The notes under the pieces were generated by a model that did not search any database, was not told the origin of the DNA, and saw only the letters and a program-made list of their open reading frames with translations. Both the position numbers and the translations under genes were made by a program. From NCBI GenBank assembly GCA_024276305.1, contig JAJRXK010000065.1, positions 1 to 62,276 of the forward strand: a stretch of 62,276 nt of DNA, in the 5' to 3' direction. Source of the DNA: Candidatus Krumholzibacteriota bacterium (GTDB lineage: Bacteria > Krumholzibacteriota > Krumholzibacteriia > JAJRXK01). Shown here in pieces: positions 10,047 to 50,726 of the stretch (position 1 is the first letter of the stretch; the number at the start of each line of letters is the position of its first letter).

Positions 10047-10277
10047 TCAGGGAGAGGACCGATCGTCTCGTCCGCGTTGGAGACCTACGAAGACGTAGGT
10101 CAGCACTCCCGCCACCGTGAGATAGACAGGCAGCATCACCAGACTGATGGCCAGCGACCAATTGAGTGCGTCGTGCCAGCGGGCGGCTACGACGACCAAC
10201 CAGGGCACCAACACCATCAAGGACAGAGCGAATCCCCACATGAGGGCGATACTCAACCACTGGAGCGCGCGGATCAT
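10047..10277 (-). CDS. small two-helix membrane protein of the redox operon
   Basis: A 76-residue protein with two hydrophobic stretches (~6-30 and ~40-66) and a charged tail RGRDDRSSP. No family is recognised. Its ATG overlaps the stop of the NrfD-like gene (ATGA), so it is almost certainly translated with that gene. It may be a small accessory subunit of the membrane complex, comparable in position to the extra small subunits of alternative complex III, but no sequence motif proves this. Confidence 0.65.
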   Translation of the reverse strand: MIRALQWLSIALMWGFALSLMVLVPWLVVVAARWHDALNWSLAISLVMLPVYLTVAGVLTYVFVGLQRGRDDRSSP

Positions 10278-12347: not shown

Positions 12348-12374
12348 CTTTCAACCCTTCCGGGGGAGTTCGGG

Positions 12375-14570: not shown

Positions 14571-14581
14571 GGCCGATCTCC

Positions 14582-15100
14582 TCAGCGGTGGCAGAGAACG
14601 CAGTCAACGGTCGCGCGAGCGTTTCCGCTCTCCTTGTGGCAGGCGATGCACCGCTGCATTCCGATCTCTCGTCGGAACGAAATCGCGGGACGGGTGATCG
14701 GAACTTCATGTTCCGCCATCTGACCGTGGCAGCGTTCACAGAGGAGTTGACCGGCCTTCACATGGCGACGGTGCGAAAAGTGCACGTGCTCGCTGACTCT
14801 GGTCAGGCGTATCCACTCGATGGGATCGGGCCCCTCGATGAACTCGATGAGCTTGGCCTCTTCGTCCGATTCCCCGATGGGGCCGTCCTCATGACAGGTG
14901 GCACAGATCTCCTTTGGAGGGAGTGTTGCATGATCTGCGCTCTCTGCCCCGATGTGACACTCGGTGCAGGGGATCTCCAACTCGCTCACATGGAGATTGT
15001 GATTGTAGGCAATGGGCTGCTGTGGACTGGCGGCGTGCAGGGAGGTGGGAAGGACGGCGCCCAGCAGGCAGGTGGCAAGGAATACGAAATGTGTCGACAA
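14582..15100 (-). CDS. pentaheme c-type cytochrome, first gene of the redox operon
   Basis: A 172-residue periplasmic multihaem cytochrome. A signal peptide covers ~1-23 (cleavage likely after LHA). Five CxxCH haem sites are seen at residues 45-49, 66-70, 121-125, 151-155 and 167-171, with extra histidines (HVHFSHRRH) able to supply distal ligands. The paired spacing resembles cytochrome c7/c3-type and ActA/QrcA subunits; ActA is also pentahaem, while QrcA carries six. It starts at TTG 15100 with GGGGAAG upstream. It would exchange electrons with soluble periplasmic cytochromes and the Qrc-like core encoded 11 bp downstream. Confidence 0.92.
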   Translation of the reverse strand: MSTHFVFLATCLLGAVLPTSLHAASPQQPIAYNHNLHVSELEIPCTECHIGAESADHATLPPKEICATCHEDGPIGESDEEAKLIEFIEGPDPIEWIRLTRVSEHVHFSHRRHVKAGQLLCERCHGQMAEHEVPITRPAISFRREIGMQRCIACHKESGNARATVDCVLCHR

Positions 15101-33016: not shown

Positions 33017-33652
33017 CTACTCGCAATCGTCGGGGACTCCGTTCCCATTCAGATCCTGGGACCGCCCCGAAGTGATGTCGCAGTCATCCGGGAAACCGTT
33101 GTTGTTGCAATCCGGCTCGCACTCGTCCGGGATGCCGTTGTTGTTGCAATCCTGAGACGTTCCATTGGCGATGTCGCAAGCATCGGCGATCCCGTTCTGG
33201 TTGCAGTCGGGGTCGCAAACGTCGATGATGCCGTTGCCGTCGCAATCGGTCGCCGTGCCGTTGAGCAACTCGCAGACGTCCGCGATTCCGTTGAAATCAC
33301 AGTCGTCTTCGCACTCATCCGGAATGCCGTTCCCGTCGCAATCCAACGACGTGCCATTGGCGATGTCGCAGTCGTCCGGGACGCCATTGTTGTTGCAATC
33401 GGTTTCGCACTCATCCAGCCGGCCGTTGTTGTTGCAGTCCAGACCGGTCCCATTCGCAATCTCGCACTCGTCCAGGATCCCGTTCCGATTGCAATCGAGA
33501 AGCTTGTCCGCCTCGATTTCGCAGGCGTCGGGAATCCCGTTGCCATTGCAGTCATCGGCACGACCATCCGCGATATCGCAGGAGTCCACGTACCCATTTC
33601 CGTCGCAGTCGTCCTCTTGGACGTCCGGGATCAGATTATCGTTGCAGTCGTT
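33017..33652 (-). repeat. 13 tandem DCNxNGxPDxC-coding units
   Basis: The 3' third of the lipoprotein gene encodes 13 Asp/Asn/Gly/Cys-rich units, often alternating with IANGT-like linkers. On the plus strand this shows as recurring TTGCAATC and GTCGCA words with period near 39 and 78 bp. Several units are nearly identical at DNA level, so copy number may vary between strains. The final unit has lost its first Cys (DLNGNGVPDDCE). Confidence 0.85.
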
Positions 33653-34795
33653 GTCGACGACGAAGTCTCCACCGAGGCCGTTCGAAGACCGGGGCTCGCC
33701 GTTCGCGGTCACGACGGACAGGGAATCGAGATCGATGGAGAAAGGTCCGGGCTCGACCCGGGGAAAGCCTACCGCGCGAGAGAAGGTGATGTCTGCGAAG
33801 GGGATCACCTCGGCGGTGGAAGCCATGCCAGTGGGAGCCTGGAAGTCCAGCCGGAGCACTCCCAGAACCGAAGCATCTTCGGTCATGGTGAAGCCCTCGG
33901 CCTGCAACTCGGGGGTGATGGTCGCCGCGGCATTGATGCCAAAGGAGTCCGGCCACGAGAAGTAGGCGGTCAGGCGATCGAGGCCCACCGTCAGGAGTCC
34001 ATCGAGGGTCAAGGTCACGTTCTGTCCGGGAAGCACGCTCACATCCGAATTCCCGAGACGCACGCCGGAAGGAAACGACACCTGGACCGTATCCGTTCGC
34101 GCTGCTTGGGTGTTGTTCTCAGTGACCGTCAGAAATACTTCGTAGTTCTGGGCGACGGGCGGGAATCGGTGGGTTGGCTCTCCCACGTGGAGCAAAGTCG
34201 AACCGTCACTGAAGTCCCAGAGCCAGGTGTAGGTCTGGAAGAATCCGCCGATGGGGCACGGGGTCTGCAGATGACCTTCGAAGGAGGCATCCCAGCCCAC
34301 GAACTCGTTCACGTTCCCGTTCCGCACCAAGGCGATTCGGGGATCTCCCACTCGTCGAGCCGAGATGTTCAGGATATCCAGATCCCCGTAGGTCTCGCCT
34401 ACGAGAACTTCGATCTTGCGCTGGTCGCTGTCTCCGTCATCGTCCTTCACCGTCAGAGTGACTTCATAGAGTCCTGGGGCCGTATAGCGATGCACGGGAT
34501 TCACCACGTTGCCAGCGGTGGCTCCATCCCCGAAGGACCAGTTCCAGTCCAGGGGAGAGTTGGCGCCGGTCGGATCCGATTTGACATTTCCGCCGGAGGC
34601 TCGTCCGAAGAAGCGAACCTCGAGGTAATCGCCATCATCATGGGTTGTGATGATGTCGCAAGCGGGCTCGGCCTTGAGTTGCGTGATCTGTGGCACCGTG
34701 TTCTCGGTACATCCGACGAACACCCAACCCAAAGTCACTGCAACGAGCATGAGCCGGCGAAGCCTGGGCTGGCCCGGGTCCGCTATCCACGTCAT
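33017..34795 (-). CDS. surface lipoprotein with PKD domains, cohesin-like domain and calcium-loop repeats
   Basis: A 592-residue predicted lipoprotein (lipobox VFVGC, Cys29). Two PKD-like domains are suggested by WNWSFGDGATAGN (~85-97) and WLWDFSDGST (~191-200) with following HRY/HRF strands. Residues ~248-375 resemble a cohesin-type beta sandwich (VSVLPGQNVTLTLDGL onwards). From ~382 to the end run 13 copies of a DCNxNGxPDxCE unit, similar to dockerin or thrombospondin type 3 calcium loops, with paired cysteines. It probably binds calcium and sits at the cell surface. The ATG at 34795 is chosen for its GGGAG site and proper signal; the open frame extends 44 codons further 5'. Ligand and partner are unknown. 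Confidence 0.8.
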   Translation of the reverse strand: MTWIADPGQPRLRRLMLVAVTLGWVFVGCTENTVPQITQLKAEPACDIITTHDDGDYLEVRFFGRASGGNVKSDPTGANSPLDWNWSFGDGATAGNVVNPVHRYTAPGLYEVTLTVKDDDGDSDQRKIEVLVGETYGDLDILNISARRVGDPRIALVRNGNVNEFVGWDASFEGHLQTPCPIGGFFQTYTWLWDFSDGSTLLHVGEPTHRFPPVAQNYEVFLTVTENNTQAARTDTVQVSFPSGVRLGNSDVSVLPGQNVTLTLDGLLTVGLDRLTAYFSWPDSFGINAAATITPELQAEGFTMTEDASVLGVLRLDFQAPTGMASTAEVIPFADITFSRAVGFPRVEPGPFSIDLDSLSVVTANGEPRSSNGLGGDFVVDNDCNDNLIPDVQEDDCDGNGYVDSCDIADGRADDCNGNGIPDACEIEADKLLDCNRNGILDECEIANGTGLDCNNNGRLDECETDCNNNGVPDDCDIANGTSLDCDGNGIPDECEDDCDFNGIADVCELLNGTATDCDGNGIIDVCDPDCNQNGIADACDIANGTSQDCNNNGIPDECEPDCNNNGFPDDCDITSGRSQDLNGNGVPDDCE

Positions 34796-34960: not shown

Positions 34961-36037
34961 TCAATGATTCGCTCGGACGAAAAGGACCATCCCGGCCACC
35001 GCATAGACCACATTTCCCGCCCAGGCGGAGACCCAGAGGTCGACGGCGCCGCTCCGACCGAGTTGGAGGCCGAAGTTCATGAAGAGATAGTATCCCACCG
35101 CCAAGCCGAGGGTGAGTCCGAAGCCCGCCCAGAGGGTGGTCTTGCGCCGCGAGGCCCCCAATGAGATTCCCAGCACCACGATGAGGAAGTTGATCACCGG
35201 GAAGCTGATTTTCTGGCCCATATCCGCGAGGTAGGGGGTGGGATCGCCTCCGGAGCGGCGAACCTTGGCCGCGAAATCCCGCAATTCCCGCCAGGTCATG
35301 TCCTCGGTCTTCACGTCTCGGCGGGCCAGGTCGGCGGGAGCTTCGACGGTGCCTCCCAGCCGCTCCCGGTCGAAGACCCGAATCCGCTCGCGCCCGTCGA
35401 CGAAGTCCCGCACCGCCCCATCCTGGAGGATCCAGGCTCCGTCCTGAAACACGGCCCGGCGGGCGTCGATTCGCTGGATCAGAACGCTGTCTCGGAAGGT
35501 CTGCACCGAGAGGGATTCGAGGGTCGGGGGCCGGGGGCGAAAGCGGCTGGCCACGTAGACCCGGCCGTCCTGACCGATGTAGGTGAGGTTGCGCTTGCCT
35601 CGGAGGCGGTCTCGAGCCTCTCCCCCGATTTCATAGCGCTTCACGTCGTGGTGCAGCCGGTTGGCCGGGGCCACGACGAATTCCCTCCAGGCTCCGCTGC
35701 CGACCGCAACGAGGAGGGCGAAGAGAAGGATGCTGCGTGAGATCCGGGCCAGGCTCTGTCCGGCCGAGAGCATGGCCGTGTACTCTTGGTTCTTGCTCAG
35801 GATTCCCATGGTGAACAGGGCAGCCAGGAGCATGCTGACGGGCAGGGTCAGATCGATGATTCGTGGCAACAAGTAGAGATAGTACTTGCCGATGGAGAGG
35901 AGCTGCGCGTCGTCATCGATGAAATTGTCGACGTGATCGAAGAGGTCGACCAATACGAAAACGCAGGCGAAGGCGAGGAGTGCCCATACCAGAACTCTCA
36001 GAAAATGGCTCAGAACGTAGCGGTCGAGGAGCTTCAT
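34961..36037 (-). CDS. lptG: LPS export permease LptG (YjgQ family)
   Basis: One of the two transmembrane subunits that, with LptB, extract LPS and feed it to LptC. The 358-residue protein has the family layout: N-terminal MKLLDRYVLSHFLRV, three helices (LPVSMLLAALFTMGILSKNQEYTAMLSAG spans the coupling-helix region), a periplasmic beta-jellyroll domain (~130-270), and C-terminal helices from FPVINFLIVVLGISLGASRR. ATG 36037 overlaps the lptF stop (ATGA). lptF and lptG are physically far from lptC and lptB in this window. Confidence 0.93.
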   Translation of the reverse strand: MKLLDRYVLSHFLRVLVWALLAFACVFVLVDLFDHVDNFIDDDAQLLSIGKYYLYLLPRIIDLTLPVSMLLAALFTMGILSKNQEYTAMLSAGQSLARISRSILLFALLVAVGSGAWREFVVAPANRLHHDVKRYEIGGEARDRLRGKRNLTYIGQDGRVYVASRFRPRPPTLESLSVQTFRDSVLIQRIDARRAVFQDGAWILQDGAVRDFVDGRERIRVFDRERLGGTVEAPADLARRDVKTEDMTWRELRDFAAKVRRSGGDPTPYLADMGQKISFPVINFLIVVLGISLGASRRKTTLWAGFGLTLGLAVGYYLFMNFGLQLGRSGAVDLWVSAWAGNVVYAVAGMVLFVRANH

Positions 36038-37395
36038 GCGGTCGACCTTTGACGCACCCAATGGGGAAGGTGGATGTGGACGACGCGGGTCTCTTGGACC
36101 GTACTGTAGAAGAGAACCGCGCCGATGGTTCCCAGCACGATGTCCGCGGCCCACATCGAGAGCCAGGGTTCGAGGAGCCCTCGATCGGCTAGCTTCTCGC
36201 CCAGGGAAATGAAAAGATAGTAGACCATGAAGGCGGCAACGCTCAGGCCGACCGACACCCCCCGTCCGCCTCGGGAGGAGACGATGGCCATCGGGATTCC
36301 GAGGATGACGAAGACGATGCAGGCCACGGGGATCGAGAACTTCTTGTGCCACTCCACCATGTAGCGGGCGCTTCGCACTTCGTAGCTGGCGGTGGTCTGG
36401 GAATTGAGGGCAAGCTGGCGCGCGGTGCGATCCGCCCGGTTGACCAGGGCATGCCACTCGTCGAGGGTGCTGCGTTCCGCCGGGATCTTCTCTCGGTCTT
36501 GGGGGTCGGCTTCGCGGTAGGCCGCCTCGAAGTAGCGCGAGAGGACCTCCCGGGCCGCACTGCGGCTGGAGGTCGCCAGAGAATCCTGATGACTGGCCGC
36601 CGCCGCGAGCTGGTGGAGGTCCATGTCCCTCTCCCCTCGACGCAACACCGCCTGTCGCCCCGCTCCCTCGAGTTCGAGGTTCACGTCGAAGCTCTGCCGT
36701 CGGAAGGCGGTCCGCGAGTAGGTCAGGGGATCCTCCGGATCGGGGAGACGGTGGTACTCTCCATTGAAGAGTTCGAGGCGGATGAGCCCGGGGGCCACCG
36801 TGATCACCTGCCCGGTCTTGGCGACGACCACGTCGGGGCTGGGATCGCCGCTGCCCTCGCGCTCGTAGAGGATGACGTCCTCCAGGGTTCCCTCGCGATC
36901 ATTCTTGTGGCGGACAAAAATCGTGTAGTTCGGAGTGATGTCGACGAAGGTATTGGGCCGGATTTCCAGGGTCGGGCGCAGCTGCTGGATCTCGAAGAGC
37001 CGCTCCCGAAGCCGGTGGTTGCTCCGAGGCAATACGAAGTGATTGTAGAGGATCATTCCGACGGAAATGACGGCGCCAGTGATCAAGAGGGGGCGACCGA
37101 TGCGGTAGAGACTGATTCCACAGGCCTTCATGGCCGTGATCTCCTGGTCCCCGGCCAGATGCCCCACACTCATCAGAATGCCGATCATGACCGCCATTGG
37201 TATGGTCAATGCAAAAGTGTGACCGAGGCTGAGCGCCAGGACTTCGGTCGCCACTTCGAATCGAATGCCCTTCTCCAGAAAGAGATCGATGTAGTTCTGC
37301 AGAACGTCGATCATCAGGAGGAAGGTGGTCACCGAGAGGCCGAAGAGAAACGGTGGCACGAAAGTCCCGAACAGATGGCGATCGATGAGTTTCAA
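36034..37395 (-). CDS. lptF: LPS export permease LptF (YjgP family), long form
   Basis: The partner permease of LptG. N-terminal LKLIDRHLFGTFVPPFLFGL, then MAVMIGILMSVGHLAGDQEITAMKACGIS with the coupling helix, a periplasmic jellyroll, and C-terminal helices (FSIPVACIVFVILGIPMAI). At 453 residues it exceeds the usual ~360. The extra ~90 residues form a charged, probably helical insert between the jellyroll and the last helices (around residues 270-370). The start TTG 37395 is chosen because AAGGA lies six bases upstream and it begins at the conserved N-terminus. A promoter with TAGACT -10 lies ~65 bp upstream. Confidence 0.9.
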   Translation of the reverse strand: MKLIDRHLFGTFVPPFLFGLSVTTFLLMIDVLQNYIDLFLEKGIRFEVATEVLALSLGHTFALTIPMAVMIGILMSVGHLAGDQEITAMKACGISLYRIGRPLLITGAVISVGMILYNHFVLPRSNHRLRERLFEIQQLRPTLEIRPNTFVDITPNYTIFVRHKNDREGTLEDVILYEREGSGDPSPDVVVAKTGQVITVAPGLIRLELFNGEYHRLPDPEDPLTYSRTAFRRQSFDVNLELEGAGRQAVLRRGERDMDLHQLAAAASHQDSLATSSRSAAREVLSRYFEAAYREADPQDREKIPAERSTLDEWHALVNRADRTARQLALNSQTTASYEVRSARYMVEWHKKFSIPVACIVFVILGIPMAIVSSRGGRGVSVGLSVAAFMVYYLFISLGEKLADRGLLEPWLSMWAADIVLGTIGAVLFYSTVQETRVVHIHLPHWVRQRSTA

Positions 37396-37721
37396 GCGGA
37401 TTCCTTGACGCTTGGGATCTCCCGCGGGAGGGTGCCTCTGGTCCTCGTAGGGTGACCGCAGTCTAGGCAGTGAGGCCGGGCCCGACAAGCTCTCGAAGCA
37501 CTCTTCGCCTCGGAAAATGCCGGAGACGAGAGGGAGTTCTCCTGCGACCTGACCACTCTGGAGTCCATCCCTTGTCGCCAGCGGGGGACAGGGCGTCCGT
37601 CCGCAGTACACATTGAAGCGGGACCGTCCCCTCGGTCGCGCGGGAGAGAGGGATTCCGAGGTGAGGAGCGCGGGGCAAGCACGACGCCGTCACGGGGCCT
37701 TGGCAGGAGGCCGACGCTGAG
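37396..37721. other. 326-bp divergent intergenic region between lptF and sprA
   Basis: No gene is supported. The minus-strand side holds a promoter for lptF (37460-37488). For sprA on the plus strand no convincing -35/-10 pair was found; the GTG start has AGGAGG (37705-37710) eleven bases upstream. The region is otherwise GC-rich and without notable repeats. Confidence 0.5.
37460..37488 (-). promoter_or_regulatory. sigma-70-like promoter for lptF-lptG
   Basis: On the minus strand, -35 TTGTCG (37488-37483), 17-bp spacer, -10 TAGACT (37465-37460), start near 37453, ~58 bases before the lptF TTG. The -10 word is identical to that of purM. Confidence 0.55.
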
Positions 37722-40700
37722 GTGCGCCGACGCCGATGGGTCCGAGCCACGATCGGGGGGACGACGCTCTTTTGCCTCCTGTTCCTCATGCCCTCCACGC
37801 GGGTCTCAGCCCAGCTCGAGCAGCCTCTCTACCCTCGAGATCATCAAGTCTTCAATCTGATCCTGCGCCACAGCGATGATCCTGACCTACTGACTCCTCG
37901 AGAGGCCGCGCTGCGGCAGAAGCTGCTCGACGTGGGAGTGGATCCGCTCCGCGGAGGGCGTCCCACCACCTTGAGCCACTTCCAGCGCTATTTGGCGGAT
38001 CAGGTCGGTTGGGACCTCCTCGCGCTGCCGAGACAGGTCGAGATTCTCGAGATCGACTGGGAACGCGGACTGGCCATCGTCTTTCGTTTTCCGGAGACCA
38101 ACCTCTTCTACACCGATGTCGACACGAATGTGGTGGGGATCGCCTTCGAGGCGCCCCGCGACATGGCGGACTCGACGTTGGGAATCGACGTCTCTTCGAT
38201 CGAGGCATGGCAGCGCGAATGGGTGGCGGTGGGGCTGCAGGATCAGCTCAGACGGCAGCTCGCCTCGAGGAGCGCAGCGGCAGCCCAGCAACACGATCTC
38301 CTCAACTTCACGATCCCCGTCCAACTTCCGCGAACCATCGAACGGGTCATCGGTCGTGGCGACGCCACGAGCATTCGGATCAGCGGTCAGCTCAACTTCA
38401 AGCTGGGAGGACGATCCACGGTTCGAAGCGACTTCGTGCCCAACGAGATTCAGGCCAGCCAATCGCTTTTCCCCTCGCTGGAGATGGAGCAGTCGCTGCG
38501 AGTGAACATGGATGGGCAGGTCGGAGAGAAGATCAAGGTGAAGGTGCGCCACGACAGCAATCAGATCGGGGCCCAGGCCACCGAGGTCAAGATCGCCTTC
38601 GAGGGCGACGAGGACGACATTATCCGGACCATCCGGGCTGGCAACATCGACGTGACTCTTCCTGGATCTCGTCTGCTTGGCGTGGGCGCGAACAAGGGAG
38701 GACTCTTCGGAGTGAAGGTCGTGGGCGCGGTGGGGCCCGTGGACTTCACCTTGCTCACCAGCAAGGAGCAGAGTCAGTCCAATGAACAGAACTTCAGTCA
38801 GAGCGGGGGAGCCGAAGACGAATTCGTCATCGACGCGTGGGACTATGCGCGTCACCGCTTCTTCACCCTCAACGCACCCGCACCGGTCTACTTCGCCGAC
38901 CAACCCGGGGCACCCGCAGATGAGTTCGCGACCCGCTTCTTGCCCAATTGGGAGATCGACGCGGCCAGCATTTCGGTCTACACCCAGGCCGCTCCGGGGC
39001 CGGGAGATGAGAACTTCTTCGATTTCGGCGTGGCTTACGTGGACACTTCCGGAATTGGGTGGGAGGGCTTCGACCCCGTGACCGGGCAGGTCACCGATGC
39101 TCTCACCGCGTCGGAGCTTCTGAGTCTGGGACGGAAACGGGTGCGCCGAGACCGTTGGCGACGCTTGGTTCCAGACGAGGACTGGACGGTTCTCCAGGAC
39201 GCCACGACCGGGAAGGTCATCGGAATCCAGATGTCGAAGTCCTACCTCGACGTGGATGTATTGGCCGTGACCTACAACATCGTCGACGAGGAGAATCGGG
39301 TCGTGCGCAAAGTCGGTAGGAGCGTGGATGACCCCGGCGGGGCGACCATCGACGATCCAGAAGAGCCCGGCAGTCCGATATTCTTCTTCAAGCTGCTCAA
39401 GGATGAAGGAGATCCTTACGATCCCACTCAGGACATCTTCAATCCGACTGCCCTCACCTGGGAGTACGAGCTTCGGAACTATTACGACCTCCGAGGACGG
39501 GGCATCGCAGCTGAGGGCTTCGACTTCCGCATCGAGCGGAATCTCAACTCGCTCGACAATCCCCAGCTCGACGAAGAGCTCGGAGAACAGAATCTCCCGT
39601 GGTTCAGGATATTCGGTCTCGACCAGGTGGATGCCTCGGGCAATCCTGGCGCCGACGACAAACCGGATATCACCGACAACAATATCTTCAATTTGAACGC
39701 GGGGATCCTTCAGTTCCCGAGCCGTACTCCCTTTGCTCCGAGCTCTGCGGACCTGAGTCGATGGTCCGGCGGGGACGTCACGTCGCTGGTCAAGGGAGAC
39801 TTGGACCTGGCCACTCCTGAGATCTACCGGCGTAACCTCACCAATCAGGAGGACCGCTCGAACGCGAGCAAATTTCGCCTCGTGGTGAAGCAGACTTCGG
39901 TGAGCAGCCGGCTTCGTCTCAACGCCTTCAACATTCAGGAGGGCAGTGAAGAAGTATCGCTCAACGGTCGCGTGTTGCAGCGCGACATCGACTACACGAT
40001 CGACTACTTCAGCGGCGAGGTGAACCTCATCGGCGAGGCCGCAGCATCACTCAATGCCCAAACCAATATCAGTGTGAAGTTCGAGGTCGACCCTCTCTTC
40101 GGAGGAGGACGCACGAGTCTGAGCGGGATGAATCTGACCTATCATCTCGGGACCCAGAATCAGATGTCGACGACCTGGCTCCTCCAGTCCAAGCCCAACA
40201 ACTCCAGCAAGCCGCGTCTGGGAGAAGAGCCCTCCAAGAGCTGGGTGGGGAACCTCTCGGGCAAGTTCCATCTGGAGCCCGGATGGGTACGCAGCCTGGC
40301 CAATCTACTGCCGCGGGTGAACAGCGACCAGCAGGTGGCCATCAACTTCGATGGCGAAGTCGCGGTCAGCGTGCCCAATCCCAATACCAAGAACGTCGCC
40401 TATGTCGAGGACTTCGAATCCGTGGATCAGAGCGTGAATGTCTCGATGTCCACCGATGGTTGGATCTGGGCCAGCTTGCCGGCGGAATACGAGAAGGGAC
40501 TCGGACATCGTGACTATGGTCCTGAGGATCGAGCCTATGCGGGGTGGCACCGGGCCCAGCCCGGAGTGAAGAGGGAATACCTCAACCCGACTCTGAGCGA
40601 TCAGGAGAGGCGCGACATCGTGCCCGCGATGGAGCTGCGGGTCGTTTCCACCGACACCACGGGGACCTGGCGGCCCAACGAGTACGCAGGAATCATGCGG

Positions 40701-43700
40701 TCGCTGGGGGGCGAAGTGGATCTGAGCCAGTCCCAGTTCTTGGAGTTCTGGGTGGATGACGGCACCGGCAACGTTGCACCCGACAGCGCGAATCGCCCCG
40801 GGATTCTCCACTTCGATTTCGGCTTCATCAACGAGGACAGCTTCTGGAAGAAGGACGCCGATGGCAATTGGATCCTGGGGAAGTTCGATCAGGAAGATCG
40901 CGACAACGACGGAGTTCTCAACCAGCTGACCGAGGACACCGGGCTCGACGGCATCAAGAGTGGTGACCCCAATGAGCAGCCATTGATCCCGAATCGCCCT
41001 CCCCTCCCCGGCACCAACGACCAGGCGGGCGACGATTTCTCCGCAGATCCGGGCAATGAGAAGATCTTTCTCTACATCAACGGCACCGAAGGCAATCGCA
41101 AGCTCGATACCGAGGACATCAACCGCAATGGAGTCCACGATCTGACGGATGGCTACTTCAGCTTGAGCGTTGACCTTGCCGATACCGTTCATGCGTTGGT
41201 GGACATCTACCGGGACTACGCGGACCGCACTTCCTTCATCGAGGAGTCTGCGAGGAACAACCGGGCCTGGCGCAAGTATCGATTGGATCTGCGGAGCGCG
41301 GTCACCCGGCGGGCGGGATTGGTGGACGGACGGATTCCTGGCACGAGTGGGGCCATCAATCCCTACTCTCCCTTCGCGCCAGATCTGTCGCGAGTGCGGA
41401 CGCTGCGGATCTGGTACGAGGATCCCAGCGGCCAGGGACCAGCCGAGCGGCGGATTCGACTGACCGAGATGCGGTTCTTGGGGAATCGTTGGCTCAACGA
41501 CCGCATTCGCACCGTGGATGATCGGATCATTCCTCCGGCGATCCTCGGGAGCGAAGAGTTTCGGCTCGGAGTCCTCAACAACAAGGACAATCCCGAGTAC
41601 CGTCCACCGGTCTTTCCGGATACTCGAAACAACGTGGCAGAAAAGGAACAATCTCTCGAGTTCATCTACCGGGACCTCGAGCCTGGTCACATGGTGCGGG
41701 CCCGAAAAGAGATCCCGGGGAGGTTGGGGCAGGACTTCACCGTGTACCGGGAGCTGAATTTCTTCTGGCGAGAGCCTCGCACCCGCGGACTCTATGATCC
41801 GCAGCAGGGGGTGCTCGAGGCTTTCTACTGGGTGGGCAGCGACTCGCTCAACTACTACGAAATCGCCTTTCCCTTCAATGCTGTGGACACCGACGCCGAC
41901 GGGTGGCAGGAATGCCGCATCGACCTCGCCGAGATGACCAATGTCAAATTCAACCCTCTCGAGGACCTCAATCCGGGGGTGGAGGGGACTCCGCAGGTGC
42001 GCAGGGGCACGGTGTTCGATCGGCTCACCCGCGAGCCCTATGTGATCACGGTGCGTGGGCGTCCGGATCTCACTCGAGTACAGCGATTCTACGCTGGGGT
42101 ACGCTATCCAACCTGGGTGGTGGGGCCAAGCGGGGTCGGGCCCAAGCTCAGCGGAGAGGTCCTCTTCAACGAAATCCGGCTGAAGGAAGTGGACGATCGG
42201 GTCGGTCATGCTCAGCGTTACGCAACTTCAGTCCTGATCCCGGGCCTGGCCGACATCCAAGTCGATTGGAGTCAGACCGACGCCGAATTTCGGGGGCTCA
42301 ACGCCACCAAGGGAAGTCAGGTACTGCAACGCAGGTGGAGTGCGCGGGCCTCGTCGCGTCTCCAGAATTTCATTCCCACGATGGGCCTGGAAATCCCCTT
42401 CTCGCTCAGCCGTCGAGTGGAGTTGGGCCTACCTAAATTTGCTCCCCGGACGGATATCGAGCTCATCGACCCTGCGGATCAGGACTCGCTGAGGACGGAG
42501 GCGGTCACCGATGCCTTCAATTTCCAGGTTCGCAAGAAGAATCCCAGTCAGTACAAACTCATGCGGGTCTTCGTCGATCCCTTTCAGTATGCCCTGAGCG
42601 GGAGCCGGGCCGTGCGGCTGAGCCCGACTCGCGACAGTCGTCAGGAGAGCGCGGATACCAAGATCAACTATGATCTGCGCCTGAGGAATGGCCTGACCTT
42701 CAAGGTGCCCTTCACTCGAACCCGGATCCGCTACTTGCCCACTCAGATCACGGCGGCGAGCAGTTGGCGGTGGGATCAGCAGAAGGTGATCGACAAGCGG
42801 ACCGACGGGACTCTGATCCCAAGAGTGCCGCAATTGACGAAGTCCTCGGTCAACAATCTCACCCTGATTTTTCAACCCACGCAGGCCTTGCAGGGCAACC
42901 TCGCGGTGAGTTCGAATCGGAATCTCATTCTGGGAAGCCAGAAGTTCCTCGGCCTGGACGTCGGTCGGGAGGTGACCTTCAGTCAGGGTCTGACCCTGAC
43001 CTACAAGCCCGGGTGGAAGCTTCTGCGCTGGGCCAAGCCCAACGTCGACTACAAAGTGGGGTACACCGAGAATCGCCGGCCCGGGGTTCGCCAGTCGACG
43101 CCCAATGTCGGCCTTCCGGACGCCGAAGACGGGTTCCTGGGCAAGCCCGGACAGGTGCGGGACATGACCTCCAACCAGGACATCACCGTCAAGGGGCAGC
43201 TCGATCTGTTCAGCTGGCTGAAGAAGCGCTTCGACAAGAAGTCCACCGCGCCGCCTCCGAGTACTGCCCGGAGGCGCAACCAACGCCAACGCGGGCAGCT
43301 CGGACGTGCCGCCCGGACGCTTCCACCTCCGGCCGCCGTGGTCCCTCCGCCGACTCCGGGTGCTGCCGCCGCCGACAGCTCCGCCCAGGCGGGTGAGTCC
43401 GAGCCAGGAATCGATCCCGGAGTCGATCCGGGAGAAGCTCCGGTTCCAGAAGAGGGCACGGTGCCCGCGCCGCCGTCGCCTGCGACGGAGGAATTCGTAC
43501 CGCCGGTGAGGGAAGAGCCGGTGGATTCGGGAGTCGAAGTCTTCGAGGACGAGGCGGACTCTCTCGGGGAGGGCGAGCCCGAGTTTCGTCCGGGAGAGGC
43601 CTTCGCCGCTTTGGTTCGGCCATTCAAGAATCTATTCGTGAACCTGCAGCCCATCCGCAGTACTTGGACCAGGAATCGAGCCACGAATTACACCCGCGTG

Positions 43701-44561
43701 AACAAGCGGGCCGACTCGGCCTATCGCTTCGGATTCACCGCGCGCCCCCAGATCGCGCCCTCCGAGGAACTGATCGTGGGACGCAACAACGACGGGACCT
43801 TCCAGACACAGCCCTTCAACTCCGAACGACGGGAGTATCGGACCCGATACAGTTTGAACTCGCAGAGCCAGGTCTTTCGCGATGTGCGCGTCGATCTGAG
43901 CTATACGAGGCAGTCAGGCCGCCGGGAGGGAACCCGCGGGGCATCGGCGAATTACAACTGGGAGATGCCGCTGGGGATTCGCATCTCTCGGGTGCACGAG
44001 TGGCGGATCTTCGGAGACCTGTTCTCCGCCTCGTCGATCGACGTGAATCTCCGCCGCAGCAAGCGGGTCGACCGCATCGTGACGGGACAGACGAGTTTTC
44101 CGAAGACGACCTGGGCAATTCAGCCCCGGTGGACCTTCCGGTTCCAGAACGAACTCGACGCGAATCTCAACGTGAATTTCAGTCGGGACAGCACTCCGAG
44201 TTCGGCGTCGATCCTGAAATCTCGCCAGTTGCGTGTGGATCTGAAGCTGCAGAAGAACTTCGATGCCAATGGCCGTTTGGCCTTTTTGCGTTTCGGTCAA
44301 CGGGGCACCGGAACGACCATCGACATGAACGTGAATGTCGCGTTCTCCTCGCAGCGCAGTGCGCGGGTAGTGACTGGAAGCAACATCGAAGATCAGCCCC
44401 GAGGGCGAGACACCCTGTCGGTGACCCCTCAATTCAGTTATCAATTCAATCGCAACTTGCGGGCGGGGTTGCAATTGGAGTTTTCTCGTTCGAAGGACAT
44501 CACCCGGAATGCGACGACGAAGACCTTCGGTCTCTTCTTCGACGCGACCATGACCTTCTAG
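37722..44561 (+). CDS. sprA: SprA/Sov family outer-membrane protein (type IX secretion translocon homologue)
   Basis: A 2279-residue protein of the SprA family, the giant beta-barrel through which type IX secretion substrates cross the outer membrane. It has a signal peptide with predicted cleavage after VSA (residue 30), leaving N-terminal Gln. Family-like pieces include ISGQLNFKLGGRS, MEQSLRVNMDGQVGEKIKVKV, IRAGNIDVTLPGSRLLGVG, KGGLFGVKVVGAVGPVDFT, VNLNGRVL-type beta repeats and many Arg/Asn/Tyr-rich barrel strands to the C-terminal MTF. A Pro/Glu-rich insert (~1840-1960) is unusual and probably extracellular or periplasmic. Start GTG 37722. No other T9SS gene lies in the window. The glutaminyl-cyclase-like gene starts nine bases after its stop. 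Confidence 0.88.
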   Translation: MRRRRWVRATIGGTTLFCLLFLMPSTRVSAQLEQPLYPRDHQVFNLILRHSDDPDLLTPREAALRQKLLDVGVDPLRGGRPTTLSHFQRYLADQVGWDLLALPRQVEILEIDWERGLAIVFRFPETNLFYTDVDTNVVGIAFEAPRDMADSTLGIDVSSIEAWQREWVAVGLQDQLRRQLASRSAAAAQQHDLLNFTIPVQLPRTIERVIGRGDATSIRISGQLNFKLGGRSTVRSDFVPNEIQASQSLFPSLEMEQSLRVNMDGQVGEKIKVKVRHDSNQIGAQATEVKIAFEGDEDDIIRTIRAGNIDVTLPGSRLLGVGANKGGLFGVKVVGAVGPVDFTLLTSKEQSQSNEQNFSQSGGAEDEFVIDAWDYARHRFFTLNAPAPVYFADQPGAPADEFATRFLPNWEIDAASISVYTQAAPGPGDENFFDFGVAYVDTSGIGWEGFDPVTGQVTDALTASELLSLGRKRVRRDRWRRLVPDEDWTVLQDATTGKVIGIQMSKSYLDVDVLAVTYNIVDEENRVVRKVGRSVDDPGGATIDDPEEPGSPIFFFKLLKDEGDPYDPTQDIFNPTALTWEYELRNYYDLRGRGIAAEGFDFRIERNLNSLDNPQLDEELGEQNLPWFRIFGLDQVDASGNPGADDKPDITDNNIFNLNAGILQFPSRTPFAPSSADLSRWSGGDVTSLVKGDLDLATPEIYRRNLTNQEDRSNASKFRLVVKQTSVSSRLRLNAFNIQEGSEEVSLNGRVLQRDIDYTIDYFSGEVNLIGEAAASLNAQTNISVKFEVDPLFGGGRTSLSGMNLTYHLGTQNQMSTTWLLQSKPNNSSKPRLGEEPSKSWVGNLSGKFHLEPGWVRSLANLLPRVNSDQQVAINFDGEVAVSVPNPNTKNVAYVEDFESVDQSVNVSMSTDGWIWASLPAEYEKGLGHRDYGPEDRAYAGWHRAQPGVKREYLNPTLSDQERRDIVPAMELRVVSTDTTGTWRPNEYAGIMRSLGGEVDLSQSQFLEFWVDDGTGNVAPDSANRPGILHFDFGFINEDSFWKKDADGNWILGKFDQEDRDNDGVLNQLTEDTGLDGIKSGDPNEQPLIPNRPPLPGTNDQAGDDFSADPGNEKIFLYINGTEGNRKLDTEDINRNGVHDLTDGYFSLSVDLADTVHALVDIYRDYADRTSFIEESARNNRAWRKYRLDLRSAVTRRAGLVDGRIPGTSGAINPYSPFAPDLSRVRTLRIWYEDPSGQGPAERRIRLTEMRFLGNRWLNDRIRTVDDRIIPPAILGSEEFRLGVLNNKDNPEYRPPVFPDTRNNVAEKEQSLEFIYRDLEPGHMVRARKEIPGRLGQDFTVYRELNFFWREPRTRGLYDPQQGVLEAFYWVGSDSLNYYEIAFPFNAVDTDADGWQECRIDLAEMTNVKFNPLEDLNPGVEGTPQVRRGTVFDRLTREPYVITVRGRPDLTRVQRFYAGVRYPTWVVGPSGVGPKLSGEVLFNEIRLKEVDDRVGHAQRYATSVLIPGLADIQVDWSQTDAEFRGLNATKGSQVLQRRWSARASSRLQNFIPTMGLEIPFSLSRRVELGLPKFAPRTDIELIDPADQDSLRTEAVTDAFNFQVRKKNPSQYKLMRVFVDPFQYALSGSRAVRLSPTRDSRQESADTKINYDLRLRNGLTFKVPFTRTRIRYLPTQITAASSWRWDQQKVIDKRTDGTLIPRVPQLTKSSVNNLTLIFQPTQALQGNLAVSSNRNLILGSQKFLGLDVGREVTFSQGLTLTYKPGWKLLRWAKPNVDYKVGYTENRRPGVRQSTPNVGLPDAEDGFLGKPGQVRDMTSNQDITVKGQLDLFSWLKKRFDKKSTAPPPSTARRRNQRQRGQLGRAARTLPPPAAVVPPPTPGAAAADSSAQAGESEPGIDPGVDPGEAPVPEEGTVPAPPSPATEEFVPPVREEPVDSGVEVFEDEADSLGEGEPEFRPGEAFAALVRPFKNLFVNLQPIRSTWTRNRATNYTRVNKRADSAYRFGFTARPQIAPSEELIVGRNNDGTFQTQPFNSERREYRTRYSLNSQSQVFRDVRVDLSYTRQSGRREGTRGASANYNWEMPLGIRISRVHEWRIFGDLFSASSIDVNLRRSKRVDRIVTGQTSFPKTTWAIQPRWTFRFQNELDANLNVNFSRDSTPSSASILKSRQLRVDLKLQKNFDANGRLAFLRFGQRGTGTTIDMNVNVAFSSQRSARVVTGSNIEDQPRGRDTLSVTPQFSYQFNRNLRAGLQLEFSRSKDITRNATTKTFGLFFDATMTF

Positions 44562-44569
44562 GAGTTGCC

Positions 44570-45472
44570 ATGCAGCATGCCATGCTCTGGGTTGCCTTCG
44601 CCTGGACGCTTCTCTCAGCCGTCGCTCCTGTCGACGCTGCGCCGAAATTCGATGCCCAGCGGGCCTGGTCGCACATGGAGACCCAGCTCTCCTTCGGTTC
44701 GCGGGCGCCCGGTCGAGAGGGCCACGAGCGTTGCCTCGGCTGGATGCGGGCGACTCTCGACTCGCTGGCGGATCGAGTCCAGGTCCACAGCTTTTCGATG
44801 GAGGATCCCTACGGGGAGGGACGCCTCGAGTTGACGAACCTGCGCGCGGTCTATCGGCCCGAGGCGAGGACTCGGATCGCTCTGGCCGCTCATTGGGACA
44901 CTCGGCCCTTCGCCGACCGAGATCCGGAGCATCCGGATCGCCCGCTTCCCGGGGCGAATGACGGCGCGAGTGGGGTGGCGGTGCTCATGGAGCTGGCCCG
45001 GGTGTTCGCCGAGCATCGTCCTCCGGTGGGAGTGGATCTTCTCTTCTTCGACGGGGAGGATTACGGGAGAGAGGGAGATCCGGATCATTACTTGTTGGGA
45101 AGTCGTCGCTTCGTCCAGGACCACCCGGAGTACCGGCCACGCGCCCTGATTCTCCTGGACATGGTGGGAGACCGGGACCTTCGCATTCCCTACGAGCGTT
45201 ACTCCGCCACCATGGCTCCCCATCTCGCGAGAGCCGTCTTCGACCGGGCTCGGGCCCTCGGCCTTCCGGCCTTCGTTCCGGTGATGGGAGCCCCCATCCT
45301 CGACGACCACATGCCCTTTCTGAACGCGGGGATCGATGCTCTCGACCTCATCGACTTCGACTACGCTCCTTGGCACACGCTGGCGGACGATCTCGACGCT
45401 TGCAGTCCTCAGAGCCTGGAGCAAGTGGGAATCCTGCTCGTTTCGCTGGTCTACGAGGGCCTGGGATACTGA
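44570..45472 (+). CDS. M28-family glutaminyl-cyclase-like zinc protein
   Basis: A 300-residue secreted or periplasmic M28-fold protein (signal peptide ~1-23). The pattern fits glutaminyl-peptide cyclotransferase better than an aminopeptidase: HWDTRP, single-zinc ligands D131 (GANDGASG), E163/D164 (FFDGEDYG) and H269 (PWHTLADD), plus catalytic D246 in DDHMPF. A QC would convert N-terminal Gln of exported proteins to pyroglutamate. The preceding SprA is predicted to expose exactly such an N-terminal Gln after signal cleavage. ATG 44570 has GGAG upstream and lies nine bases after sprA, so co-expression is likely. A peptidase role cannot be excluded. Confidence 0.82.
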   Translation: MQHAMLWVAFAWTLLSAVAPVDAAPKFDAQRAWSHMETQLSFGSRAPGREGHERCLGWMRATLDSLADRVQVHSFSMEDPYGEGRLELTNLRAVYRPEARTRIALAAHWDTRPFADRDPEHPDRPLPGANDGASGVAVLMELARVFAEHRPPVGVDLLFFDGEDYGREGDPDHYLLGSRRFVQDHPEYRPRALILLDMVGDRDLRIPYERYSATMAPHLARAVFDRARALGLPAFVPVMGAPILDDHMPFLNAGIDALDLIDFDYAPWHTLADDLDACSPQSLEQVGILLVSLVYEGLGY

Positions 45473-45719: not shown

Positions 45720-46244
45720 ATGTCGTCGAACGACGCGCTCCATGACCGCCTCGTGGAGCTGGCTCAACCGGAGCTGGATCTGCTGGGGGTGGAATTGGTC
45801 GAGTTGGAGATCCTCCGCGGAGGAGGGCGCCTCACCCTGCGATTCGCGGTCGAGAAGCCGGTCGATCCCGGAGCTTCTGCGGAGGCTCATATCGGAATCG
45901 ACGAGTGTGCGCGGGCGAGTCGTGCGATTGCGCGGGTGCTCGAGGCCGAAGACGAGGAGTCCGGGTTGCTGCCCGGTCGCTTCACCATCGAGGTGACGAG
46001 CCCGGGGATCTTTCGGCGATTGAGTCGGCCCGAACACTTCGCCCGTTTCGTGGGTCGCAAGGCGAAGTTCGTGTTGCAACCCGGCGAGGGCCCGACCGAG
46101 CTCCGAGGAACTCTGGCCGGGATCGATTCGGACGAGGTCGAGGTGGTGGTCGAGAAGGGGGAGCCGCAGAGGATCCCGCTGGCTCGGATTCTGAAGGCCC
46201 ACCTCGACCCGGACTTGGATTTCGGTCGTCGCGACAAGCGATGA
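45720..46244 (+). CDS. rimP: ribosome maturation factor RimP
   Basis: A 174-residue RimP that assists 30S assembly. The N-terminal domain contains LLGVELVELEILRGGGRLTLRFAVE and the IGIDECARASRAIARVLE helix; VTSPGIFRRLSRPEHFARFVGRKAKF is the strongly conserved centre; a C-terminal SH3-like domain ends in IPLARILKAHLDPDLDF. ATG 45720 has GGGAGG upstream. It opens the rimP-nusA-infB block. The 247 bp before it contain a T9 tract near 45553-45561 but no clear promoter pair. Confidence 0.94.
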   Translation: MSSNDALHDRLVELAQPELDLLGVELVELEILRGGGRLTLRFAVEKPVDPGASAEAHIGIDECARASRAIARVLEAEDEESGLLPGRFTIEVTSPGIFRRLSRPEHFARFVGRKAKFVLQPGEGPTELRGTLAGIDSDEVEVVVEKGEPQRIPLARILKAHLDPDLDFGRRDKR

Positions 46245-46260
46245 CCAGTGAGGAAGAATC

Positions 46261-47730
46261 ATGGAGTCGATGGATTACAACATCGTAGAAGCTCTGCAGG
46301 CGGTCGTGCGTGAGAAGAACGTCGAGACGTCGGTGCTCATGGACAGCCTGGTGGTGGGTCTACAGTCCGCGGCCAAGAAGAAGGTCGGACTGAACGCAGA
46401 CATCCAGGTCGTCGTGGACGAGGACACCGGGGGCATCGAGATCGCTCAGCGGAAGACGGTGGTGGAGCGGGTCATCGACTCCGAGACTCAGATCTCCGTG
46501 GAGGACGCCCAGGTCGAGTATGGGGACGGCGTCGACGTTGGCGACGTGGTCAAGACCTACCTCGATTACAACGACTTCGGTCGCAACGCCATCGGAGTGG
46601 CCAAGCAGGTGCTCATGCAGAAGGTCCGTGACGCGGAGCGGGCGCAGATCTTCGAGATGTTCCGGGATCAAGTCGGGGAAGTGGTCGTGGGCACCGTCCA
46701 GCAGGTGGATCGCGGGAATGTCATGGTCAATCTGGGGCGTGTCGAAGCACTGCTGCCCTTCCGGGAGCGGATCCGTGGCGAGAACTACCATCAGAACAAG
46801 ACTCTCAAGGCCTTCGTGATCGAAGTCCAGAACTCCCCCCGGGGGCCTCAGGTCATCATCAGCCGGACTCATCCTGGTTTCTTGAAAGCCCTCTTCGAGG
46901 CCGAAGTGCCGGAAATCGAAGAGAATATCGTCGAGATCAAAGCGGCTGCGCGCGAACCCGGAACCCGCAGCAAGATCGCAGTGGTGAGCCACGACGAACG
47001 GGTCGATGCCGTCGGCTCCTGCGTGGGAATGAAGGGCAGCCGGGTACAGGCCGTGACCCGAGAGCTGTCGGGCGAAAAGATCGACATCGTACCCTGGAGC
47101 GACGATCCCATGGCCTTGATCACACGGGCATTGAGTCCGGCGCGCGTGCATCAGATCATTCCGGACGAAGAGAATCACTCCGTGGTCGCGGTGGTCGACG
47201 ACGATCAGCTCAGTCTGGCCATCGGTCGTGAGGGCAAGAATGTTCGGCTCGCGGCGAAGCTGACGGGTTGGAAGATCGACCTCGTGAGCACGACTGAGCA
47301 TCAGCTGCGTGAGCGTCTGACCAGTGAGCTTTCGATGGGTATCGAGCAGATGTCTGGGGTCACCGAGGAACTCGCGGTGACGATCAAGGACGCCGGGATT
47401 ACCACCGTCGAGGAGATGGCCGCCGCGACCGTGGACCAGATCATGCTCCTGGCCGGCCTCGAGGCCGAGGTGGCGAGGGATCTCATCGAGACCGCGCGCG
47501 CTACCCTCGAGGAGATGCGCAAGCAAGTCGAAGAGATCATCGTTCGCGAGAAGGAAGAGGCCGCTGCCGCGCTCTCCGAAGAGGACCTCTTCGGAGGTGC
47601 ACAGGTCGAGGAGGAGAAACTCGACGAGGCAGAGATCTTCGGTGAGAGCGAGGCCGAGGAAAAGTCCGGGGATTCCACGGAGGAGAAGAAGCTCACCGAA
47701 GAGGATCTCTTCGGTGGGGCGAGCGACTGA
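46261..47730 (+). CDS. nusA: transcription termination/antitermination protein NusA
   Basis: A 489-residue RNA-polymerase-binding factor controlling pausing, termination and antitermination. It has the N-terminal polymerase-binding domain (~1-125), S1 domain (VGEVVVGTVQQVDRGNVMVNLGR), two KH domains (RVDAVGSCVGMKGSRVQ, SLAIGREGKNVRLAAKLTG) and a helix-hairpin-helix repeat (~365-425). A highly acidic tail follows in which EEDLFGGA occurs twice (around residues 440 and 482). Starts 16 bp after rimP and ends two bases before the L7Ae-like gene. Confidence 0.96.
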   Translation: MESMDYNIVEALQAVVREKNVETSVLMDSLVVGLQSAAKKKVGLNADIQVVVDEDTGGIEIAQRKTVVERVIDSETQISVEDAQVEYGDGVDVGDVVKTYLDYNDFGRNAIGVAKQVLMQKVRDAERAQIFEMFRDQVGEVVVGTVQQVDRGNVMVNLGRVEALLPFRERIRGENYHQNKTLKAFVIEVQNSPRGPQVIISRTHPGFLKALFEAEVPEIEENIVEIKAAAREPGTRSKIAVVSHDERVDAVGSCVGMKGSRVQAVTRELSGEKIDIVPWSDDPMALITRALSPARVHQIIPDEENHSVVAVVDDDQLSLAIGREGKNVRLAAKLTGWKIDLVSTTEHQLRERLTSELSMGIEQMSGVTEELAVTIKDAGITTVEEMAAATVDQIMLLAGLEAEVARDLIETARATLEEMRKQVEEIIVREKEEAAAALSEEDLFGGAQVEEEKLDEAEIFGESEAEEKSGDSTEEKKLTEEDLFGGASD

Positions 47731-47732
47731 TC

Positions 47733-48047
47733 GTGGTTGCTCAGCGGGAGGCGGTGCTGAGGTTGCTGGGATTGGCGCTGCGTGCAGGGCGTCTTCAGCT
47801 CGGCGCGGGGCCAGTGCTGCGAGCTCTCGAGCGTGAGGCACCGGGCATCGTCTTCTTGGCAAGAGATGCTGGGCGCAGTGTGGCGCGCAGCGTGCGGCAT
47901 GCGGGAGAGAAATCGCGCATCGAAGATCAGCTCCTCGATGCGGAGGATCTTTCCGGTGCCTTCGGCCGGAGACAGTTGTCGGTGGTGTCCGTGCACTCCC
48001 CCGACTTCGTCGATGGCCTCGAGAAACTATTGTCCGAGACGAGGTGA
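47733..48047 (+). CDS. L7Ae/L30e/YlxQ-family RNA-binding protein
   Basis: A 104-residue protein matching the YlxQ-type L7Ae fold found between nusA and infB in many bacteria: LLGLALRAGRLQLGAGPVL, IVFLARDAGRSVARSV and DLSGAFGRRQLSVVSV. These proteins bind kink-turn RNA. The usual preceding YlxR gene is absent. GTG 47733 follows the nusA stop by two bases. infB starts six bases after its end. Confidence 0.85.
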   Translation: MVAQREAVLRLLGLALRAGRLQLGAGPVLRALEREAPGIVFLARDAGRSVARSVRHAGEKSRIEDQLLDAEDLSGAFGRRQLSVVSVHSPDFVDGLEKLLSETR

Positions 48048-48053
48048 GCCACC

Positions 48054-50726
48054 TTGGCGGAGAAGAATCGAGTTTACGAAGTGGCGCGAGCCCACGAACT
48101 CACCAGTAAGGCCCTGATTGCGGTCTTGCAGGAATTGGGTGTGATGGCGAAGTCCCATATGTCGGTGCTCACGGACGAAGACCTGGCGCTGGTGGAGAAG
48201 CATTTCTCCCGGCTCGAGGCACACGGAGAAAAAGTGATCGAAAACGCGCCGAGAGTCGAAGTCGAAAAGGGCAAATCGCGACCCAAGCGAATGTCGGCCC
48301 GCGAAAAGCTGGAGGCGAAGCGCGCCGAACGCGAAGCGCAGAAGAAGGCCGCCGCCGCTCCGCCGACCGATGCGGAGTCGGAGTCGGTAGAGGAGGAGGA
48401 AAGCCCCGCTCCCAAGAAGACACTGCGGAAGGTCGAGGTTTCGACTTCGCTTCCGGAGAAGATCGAGGCCAAGCCTCGACTGCGAAAGATGCAGATCGTC
48501 GAGCCGGTGGGGCTCCCGCAGGCCGAGACTCCGCCTCCGGCCGACGAGACTCCGGCGTCACCGCCTCCACCCCGGCGAACCACGCAGAAAGTGAATCTGA
48601 GTGCGATCAGCGAGGCCGCGGCCAAGACGCGGGCCCAAATGGCCGACGAGATGCGGACGAAAGTCGCTGCCCCGACGCCTCAGCGCAAGCCGAAGCGCAA
48701 GGAGCGGGAGGAGAGCCGGCCATCCGGACGGCCCGCGGGGCGGGGAGCCGACGAGCACCAGCCGCGGCCCATCGATCCGAACGCCATCCGCAGCAGTGTT
48801 CAGAAGGCTCTCGGTGGCATCAACGTGCGACGCGGAGGACCGCCTCGCGGTGGTCAGTCCCGGGGAAGCGCTCCGCCGTCGAAGGGCCGAAAGGGGTCGA
48901 GGCACATCCGTGAAGAGAAGCGCGAGAAGGTGGCGAGGCATCGGGCCCGCGAGGAAGCCGCGCGGGCTCGCACCGACGAGCTTCGTCTGACGGAGTTCAT
49001 CACCGTTCAGGAACTCGCGGAGAAGCTCGAGACCAAGCCGCAGGAGCTGATCGTGAAGCTCATGGGGCTCGGTGTTATGGCGACGATCAATCAACGGCTC
49101 GAGCGCGAGCAGGTCGAACTTCTCGTCGCCGATTACGAGGACTTGTCGATCCATTGGCTCGACACTTCGGCCGGCGAAGACATCGAGATCGACGAGGACG
49201 AAGGCGAGGAGATGCCGCGTCCTCCGGTGGTCACGGTCATGGGGCATGTGGACCACGGCAAGACGACCCTGCTCGATCACCTTCGGTCGACGAATGTCAC
49301 TGCGGGGGAGGCCGGCGGGATCACCCAGCACATCGGGGCCTATCAGATCGATACCGCACGGGGGAAGATCACCTTCCTCGATACGCCCGGCCACGAAGCC
49401 TTCACCGCCATGCGTGCGCGCGGAGCGAGGGTCACCGATATCGTGGTGGTGGTGGTCGCGGCCGACGACAAGGTCATGCCGCAGACCGTCGAAGCTCTCG
49501 ATCACGCCAAGGCATCGGGATGCCCGACGATCATCGCGATCAACAAGATCGACCTGCCGGCGGCGGACATTCTAGGAGTGAAGCAGGATCTCATGCGGCA
49601 CAACGTGCTCATCGAGGAATACGGCGGCGACGTTCAGTGCGTCGAACTGAGCGCCAAGAAGGGTTTGAACCTCGAAGCGCTTCTCGAAGCCATCGCACTG
49701 CAAGCGGAGATTCTCGAACTCAAGGCGCGACAGGATGGCCGGGCTCAGGCCACGGTGGTCGAGGCCCGCAAGGATCTCGGCCGGGGCGCGGTATTCACCG
49801 CATTGGTGACTCGGGGAACCCTGAAGATCGGCGATCCCTTCGTCGCCGGCGCGACTTCCGGTCGGGTTCGCGCGATGTTCGACGAATTCGATCAGCCGGT
49901 GGAAGAGGCTCCGCCGGCGAGGCCGGTCCTGGTACTCGGGGCTTCCGAGGTGCCGGTGGCGGGGGACCAGATGGACGTGGTTCCATCGGACAGCGAAGCC
50001 AAGGAGATCGCTTCGCGTCGCCGTCGTCTGCAGCGGGAACAGGCCCTGCACGCGTTGAAGAAGCAGCCCACTCTGGAGTCGCTCTTCGATCGGATGCAGG
50101 CCGAGGCGGACGCCGTGGAGCTGCCCCTGGTCATCAAGGGCGATGTTTCGGGCTCGGTCGAGGCGGTCGCCGATGCGTTGATGGGCCTCTCGAACGAGAA
50201 GGTGACCGTCCACGTGATCCACACCGGAGTGGGTGGAATCAACAACAACGACATCATGCTGGCGGCGGCGAGCCAAGCCATCATCATTGGCTTCAATCTG
50301 CGTCCCGATCCGGCGACGCGGGCATTTGCTCAGGAACAGCACGTGGAGGTCAAACTCTACGACATCATCTACGAGGCGGTGTCGGATGTGAAGGCCGCCA
50401 TGAAGGGGCTCCTGGCGCCTGTCGATCGCGAGGTGCGCGTGGGCTCGGCCGAGGTGCGCGAACTCTTCCGTGTGCCCAAGGTTGGGACGATCGCCGGTAG
50501 TTATGTTCTCGAAGGAGAGATCCGACGCAACTGCCGAGTACGTGTGGTGCGGGATCAGGTGCAGATCTACGATGGTCGAGTGGGATCGCTCAAACGCTTC
50601 AAGGAAGATGCCCGCAGTGTGAGCACGGGCTATGAATGTGGAATCGGCATCGAGGGCTTCGACGATGTAAAGATCGGCGACATCTTCGAGGCCTACGAGA
50701 TCGAGCAAGTCGCTCAGGAGATGTAG
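48054..50726 (+). CDS. infB: translation initiation factor IF-2
   Basis: An 890-residue initiation factor GTPase that positions initiator tRNA. The N-terminal ~300 residues are Lys/Glu/Pro/Ala-rich and variable, starting with an IF2_N domain ([23 protein letters not shown]) that is repeated near 315 ([26 protein letters not shown]). The G domain has [33 protein letters not shown] and NKIDLPAAD, followed by domains II, III and IV ending in [24 protein letters not shown] 48054 is supported by GAGGTG seven bases upstream. rbfA follows 27 bp later. Confidence 0.97.

Follow-up and report, generated by a model that had tools for sequence, protein, structure and literature searches.

The closest described relatives of the enzyme considered here are the type II glutaminyl cyclases (QCs) of Bacteroidetes, namely PgQC of P. 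gingivalis (PG2157; 6qql, 7cje), TfQC of T. forsythia (6qro) and BtQC of B. thetaiotaomicron (4fuu), all of the same fold. According to the Bacteroidetes Q-rule, glutamine occupies the +1 position of more than 48% of signal peptidase I substrates in 332 of 334 species, with a published average of 71% in Bacteroidetes against typically less than 20% in other groups such as Spirochaetes and Chlamydiae (PMC5837995, PMC10653852). QC is essential in P. gingivalis (PMC10653852). A striking coincidence of species possessing a T9SS with species obeying the Q-rule was pointed out by Bochtler et al. in 2018, who nevertheless argued against a mechanistic tie (PMC5837995). The occurrence of T9SS outside Bacteroidetes has been suggested earlier, and QC outside Bacteroidetes is not new either, since the type II QCs from Fimbriiglobus ruber (7d1b) and Acidobacteriales (7d18) also adopt the QC fold, although they are more distant in sequence from the QC described below.

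The window analyzed is the whole stretch of 62,276 nucleotides from a Candidatus Krumholzibacteriota bacterium, corresponding to contig C49 of a genome (G000) of 3.55 Mb in 119 contigs with 98% completeness. What stands out in it is the pairing of the translocon gene sprA with a qc gene, arranged as follows in window coordinates.

34961..37395, minus strand: lptG and lptF, divergent from sprA; a flank shared by the phylum and one Calditrichota locus
37705..37710, plus strand: AGGAGG ribosome-binding site of sprA, 11 bases upstream of the start, read from the sequence
37722..44561, plus strand: sprA, encoding Sov/SprA, the T9SS outer-membrane translocon, 2279 aa, GTG start (TIGR04189; SprA_N, PF14349)
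37722..37811, plus strand: predicted SprA signal peptide, residues 1-30, ending in VSA (sequence and +1-blind finder)
37812..37814, plus strand: CAG codon of Gln31, the predicted N-terminus of mature SprA
44560..44564, plus strand: ribosome-binding site AGGAG for qc, which overlaps the stop codon of sprA, read from the sequence
44570..45472, plus strand: qc, predicted type II glutaminyl cyclase of the M28 superfamily, 300 aa (Pfam PF04389, PDB matches, AlphaFold model)
44960..44962, plus strand: QC D131, assigned by homology as a zinc ligand, and next to it Gly132 (aligned with PgQC D149-G150), where aminopeptidases carry Asn or Asp
45056..45061, plus strand: QC E163, a catalytic residue, and D164, assigned by homology as a zinc ligand, from alignment and literature
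45158..45160, plus strand: QC D197, aligned with D248 of human QC
45305..45307, plus strand: QC D246 within the invariant DDH motif, from alignment
45371..45376, plus strand: QC W268-H269, Trp followed by the zinc ligand His, from alignment
45720..50726, plus strand: rimP-nusA-(L7Ae/YlxQ-like)-infB downstream of qc, from homology and gene order; a flank kept in the phylum only

The two genes are co-directional, and the spacer between them (44562-44569) measures 8 bases instead of the nine counted in the first-pass annotation. In contrast to PgQC, which heads an operon with PG_2158 and hemG, the qc gene here comes after sprA. Elsewhere on the minus strand of the window, a cluster at 10047-15100 resembles the menaquinone reductase complex Qrc, although the scores of 97 bits for QrcA and 184 bits for QrcB fall below the curated cut-offs, and just beyond lptG, on the same strand, lies the gene of a PKD-domain protein (33017-34795) with many C-terminal, calcium-binding-like repeats of the DCNGNGIPDECE type.

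SprA is encoded by a single ORF in a single copy, scored 480.8 bits against the TIGR04189 profile (cut-off 200) and also matched SprA_N (PF14349). Compared with the known SprA/Sov proteins, it belongs to a non-Bacteroidota organism, is more divergent and is followed by qc. Its first 30 residues constitute a signal peptide with the end VSA, so that Gln31 is likely the mature N-terminus, and the same site, VSA^Q31, was chosen with a score of 7.2 by a signal-peptide finder blind to the +1 residue, in line with the exposed Gln31 predicted at first pass. Moreover, more than 55 C-terminal sorting domains (CTD, TIGR04183) and seven PorV-family genes (NF033709), all above cut-off, were detected in the genome, and judged from these domains and genes a working T9SS is likely. 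The system appears to be heavily used in this organism outside Bacteroidota. Among relatives whose SprA bears a clear signal peptide, Asp is the commonest +1 residue, and Gln was found in the window's genome, in G009 and probably in G036 and G038; Gln31 therefore belongs to a minority and is no conserved feature. The candidate role of Gln31 as a conserved feature by which SprA would partner QC was rejected on this ground.

The pair itself is a different matter, and the conservation that the first-pass annotation had proposed to check was found in the window's phylum, Calditrichota, Zixibacteria and Marinimicrobia. In a set of 80 genomes of the phylum, QC was present in 71 and SprA in 78; both genes share one contig in 59 genomes, and qc follows sprA in 56 of the 59, a pair being scored where QC started on the same strand and no more than 2.3 kb from the final match to the SprA profile. 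Stop-to-start gaps that could be read directly ranged from -26 to +18 bases, save for loci with an uncertain QC start. The exceptions are G001 and G002, where QC is about 6 kb away, and G075, whose arrangement is ambiguous. At locus L091, a short SprA-like fragment lies just upstream of QC. For Calditrichota, coordinates placed qc after sprA in 21 of 30 QC-bearing genomes, whereas in the remainder either sprA and qc were split between contigs, frequently lying at their ends, or no SprA match was found; the pair was also found at 6 of 7 Zixibacteriota loci and at all three Marinimicrobia loci. Conversely, QC after sprA was found in none of 19 sampled QC-bearing Bacteroidota genomes, and the pair was absent from the Poribacteria, Armatimonadota, Gemmatimonadota and Ignavibacteriota loci examined. 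Poribacteria and Armatimonadota carry QC without a clear SprA neighbor, which indicates that QC is not bound to T9SS; in Poribacteria (L079 9242-9865 and other loci), QC directly follows what we take to be a recR-like gene, often with 0 bases between them. Mapping the pairing onto the QC tree gave six label changes, at least two of them forced by well-supported branches, and the pair may have a single old origin with later losses. A literature search for papers in which "SprA" and "glutaminyl cyclase" occur together as whole words returned none.

Such a distribution could be ascribed to nothing more than conserved synteny in a part of the chromosome that is rearranged slowly, SprA and QC being functionally unconnected. 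Within the window's phylum lptG-lptF / sprA-qc-rimP-nusA-infB is conserved as an entire block, and block synteny does add to pair conservation there; carA-carB is inserted between sprA and qc in G002 (L066 5300-9970), with carB overlapping the qc start by four bases, and qc alone was lost in G079, both of which suit this explanation. Beyond the phylum, however, rimP is gone from Calditrichota, one locus of which keeps lptG-lptF, and both flanks are gone in Zixibacteria and Marinimicrobia, yet sprA and qc stay together, in several cases with an overlap or a gap of a few bases. The persistence of the pair where both flanks have changed speaks for its being retained in its own right, and synteny as the whole explanation is regarded as unlikely. 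The loss in G079 (96% complete) is a clean one (G079:C64:257260-257612, L247), representing a natural loss of QC in a T9SS-bearing relative: lptG-lptF, sprA, rimP, nusA and infB are all in place, and no qc remnant was seen in any coding-strand frame of the 354-base gap between sprA and rimP. SprA thus does not strictly need QC in that organism.

With regard to the identity of the downstream gene product, sequence, modeled fold and diagnostic residues assign the 300-aa M28 protein with near certainty to the type II glutaminyl cyclases, which upholds the glutaminyl-cyclase-like assignment made at first pass. The nearest solved structures are 6qql, 7cje and 6qro (E about 1e-48), and QCs of P. gingivalis, T. 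forsythia and other Bacteroidetes matched at E about 1e-48 to 1e-43, compared with about 1e-13 for human QC and 1e-4 to 1e-10 for true aminopeptidases. An AlphaFold model computed from eight locus sequences (pTM 0.86, mean pLDDT 87) was searched with Foldseek and superposed on the QCs of P. gingivalis, B. thetaiotaomicron and T. forsythia with TM values of 0.82-0.86, the top matches comprising nothing but QCs and entries whose reannotation as QCs has since been proposed. In alignments, the zinc ligands D131, D164 and H269 correspond to D149/D183/H299 of PgQC, and the catalytic acids E163 and D197 to E201 and D248 of human QC. Hence D131, E163, D164 and H269 were correctly picked out in the first-pass annotation, while D246, although present, was mistaken for the fifth key acid, which is D197. 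Taudte et al. (2021) distinguished bacteroidal QCs from aminopeptidases by D149/D183/H299, a Gly after D149, a Trp before the His ligand and an R-P loop (PMC7948796), and all of these bacteroidal-QC marks occur here as D131-G132, D164, W268-H269 and R112-P113. Across 111 aligned sequences, D110, P113, D131, E163, D164, D197, D245, D246, H247 and W268 are invariant, and R112 and H269 (109 sequences each) as well as G132 (108) nearly so. The near-invariance of this residue pattern in more than 100 relatives, together with the recurrence of the pair across phyla, amounts to more than chance.

The opposing reading, which takes the protein for an aminopeptidase or a generic exopeptidase and its QC character for a family-level coincidence, draws on the Pfam family name, Peptidase_M28 (PF04389), and on the point made by Bochtler et al. 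that most active-site residues are common to QCs and M28 aminopeptidases and alone do not tell the activity (PMC5837995), so that we infer cyclase activity here, albeit strongly. This reading is nevertheless very unlikely, as the positions that separate the classes (D131-G132, D164, W268 and R112-P113) are all of the QC type, the fold and sequence neighbors are QCs, and two other M28 proteins of the same genome are of the aminopeptidase type, displaying the pattern DN/EE/YH versus D-G/E-D/W-H in QC. The double-zinc M28 aminopeptidase pattern (an EE pair, Asp-Asn and Tyr before the last His) was not seen in the aligned QC, and the position of D164 is a Glu in animal QCs and in the other M28 proteins of the genome. 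One pocket residue of PgQC, Trp193, is not kept and aligns with Tyr174, a position occupied by Tyr, Met or Phe in nearly all aligned relatives; because Trp193 is neither a zinc ligand nor a catalytic acid, this substitution separates the protein from the Bacteroidetes subgroup and not from type II QCs. The protein falls outside the tree clade containing PgQC and most QCs of Bacteroidota, Balneolota and Ignavibacteriota. In the window's genome its signal peptide is weak, ends in VDA^AP and lacks a lipobox, whereas many relatives possess one.

The first-pass annotation had further suggested that the Bacteroidetes Q-rule would extend to this lineage. The +1 residues were counted with an in-house gene caller and the +1-blind signal-peptide finder, likewise in-house and checked on E. 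coli and Bacteroidota stretches only, over 1.05 of the 3.55 Mb (30%) of the window's genome and over stretches of other genomes. Gln occupied +1 in 20 of 113 predicted signal peptidase I substrates of the window's genome (18%, 95% interval 12-26%), or 19% and 25% under stricter and more lenient rules, respectively. The background over +2 to +11 was 4.0%, and the peak was confined to +1, an enrichment of 4.4-fold over the next ten residues (p 2e-8). By the same method, the Bacteroidota controls gave 16 of 30 (53%, and 65% at a higher threshold; range 53-67%), a significant difference (p 2e-4). The counts elsewhere were 1 of 14 in E. coli, from which the window's genome does not differ significantly at these small numbers, 8 of 38 in Poribacteria and 5 of 34 in Zixibacteria. 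Calditrichota reached 14 of 40 (35-43%; loci L063-L073 and L268-L277), a share intermediate between that of non-Bacteroidota and the Q-rule; in Zixibacteria and Marinimicrobia, Glu is another frequent +1 residue. Relatives devoid of QC had +1 Gln in 3 of 27 substrates versus 25 of 136 (p 0.58, small numbers), and G079 alone in 0 of 8. A special richness of T9SS cargo in +1 Gln was considered and rejected, with 3 of 22 among CTD-bearing cargo genes with a clear signal peptide. The Q-rule in the window's genome was rejected likewise at 18% of predicted substrates; of the enrichment expected at first pass, a modest excess over background is real in this 30% sample, but it makes no rule. That most signal peptidase I substrates of the lineage expose a Gln to be cyclized, SprA being a typical one, is therefore highly improbable, for despite the clear excess over background and the higher share in Calditrichota with the same pair, the genome's own share falls far below that of Bacteroidota, its cargo is no richer in +1 Gln and the SprA residue is mostly Asp in relatives.

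These results point to an explanation, considered probable, in which sprA and qc form a two-gene operon and an exported type II QC acts on those exported proteins, a minority, whose first residue is Gln, and caps them. The two genes would be coexpressed as one operon, and the qc product, presumably exported, would act as a cyclase rather than an aminopeptidase, converting the N-terminal Gln exposed by signal peptidase I to pyroglutamate on a minority of exported proteins. The resemblance to the Bacteroidetes Q-rule lies in the presence of QC, T9SS and some +1 Gln enrichment, and the difference in the restriction to that minority. By analogy with P. gingivalis, the likely use would be the protection of some proteins of the envelope, and of some secreted by T9SS, against aminopeptidases. 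Gln31 of SprA would probably be a QC substrate as well, although only incidentally, and would not explain why the genes are paired. Since the pair recurs in several phyla amid different flanking genes, joint production of cyclase and translocon seems to be under selection, and gene order, the one line of support here, suggests a tie between the functions of SprA and QC. A further-reaching version, unlikely on present evidence, holds that outside Bacteroidota, in several phyla, QC could be a dedicated partner of the T9SS translocon. Produced along with SprA, it would cap the N-termini of some periplasmic clients (translocon, shuttle or cargo proteins) prior to or in the course of their export across the outer membrane, and this link would be ancestral, having loosened in Bacteroidota once cyclization became general.

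The co-occurrence of sprA and qc in four phyla despite changing neighbors provides evidence of linked functions that is independent of the coincidence between T9SS and Q-rule species. Furthermore, a lineage that has both the enzyme and the T9SS but no Q-rule can show the role of QC apart from general cyclization, and the relative that lost only qc offers a natural comparison.
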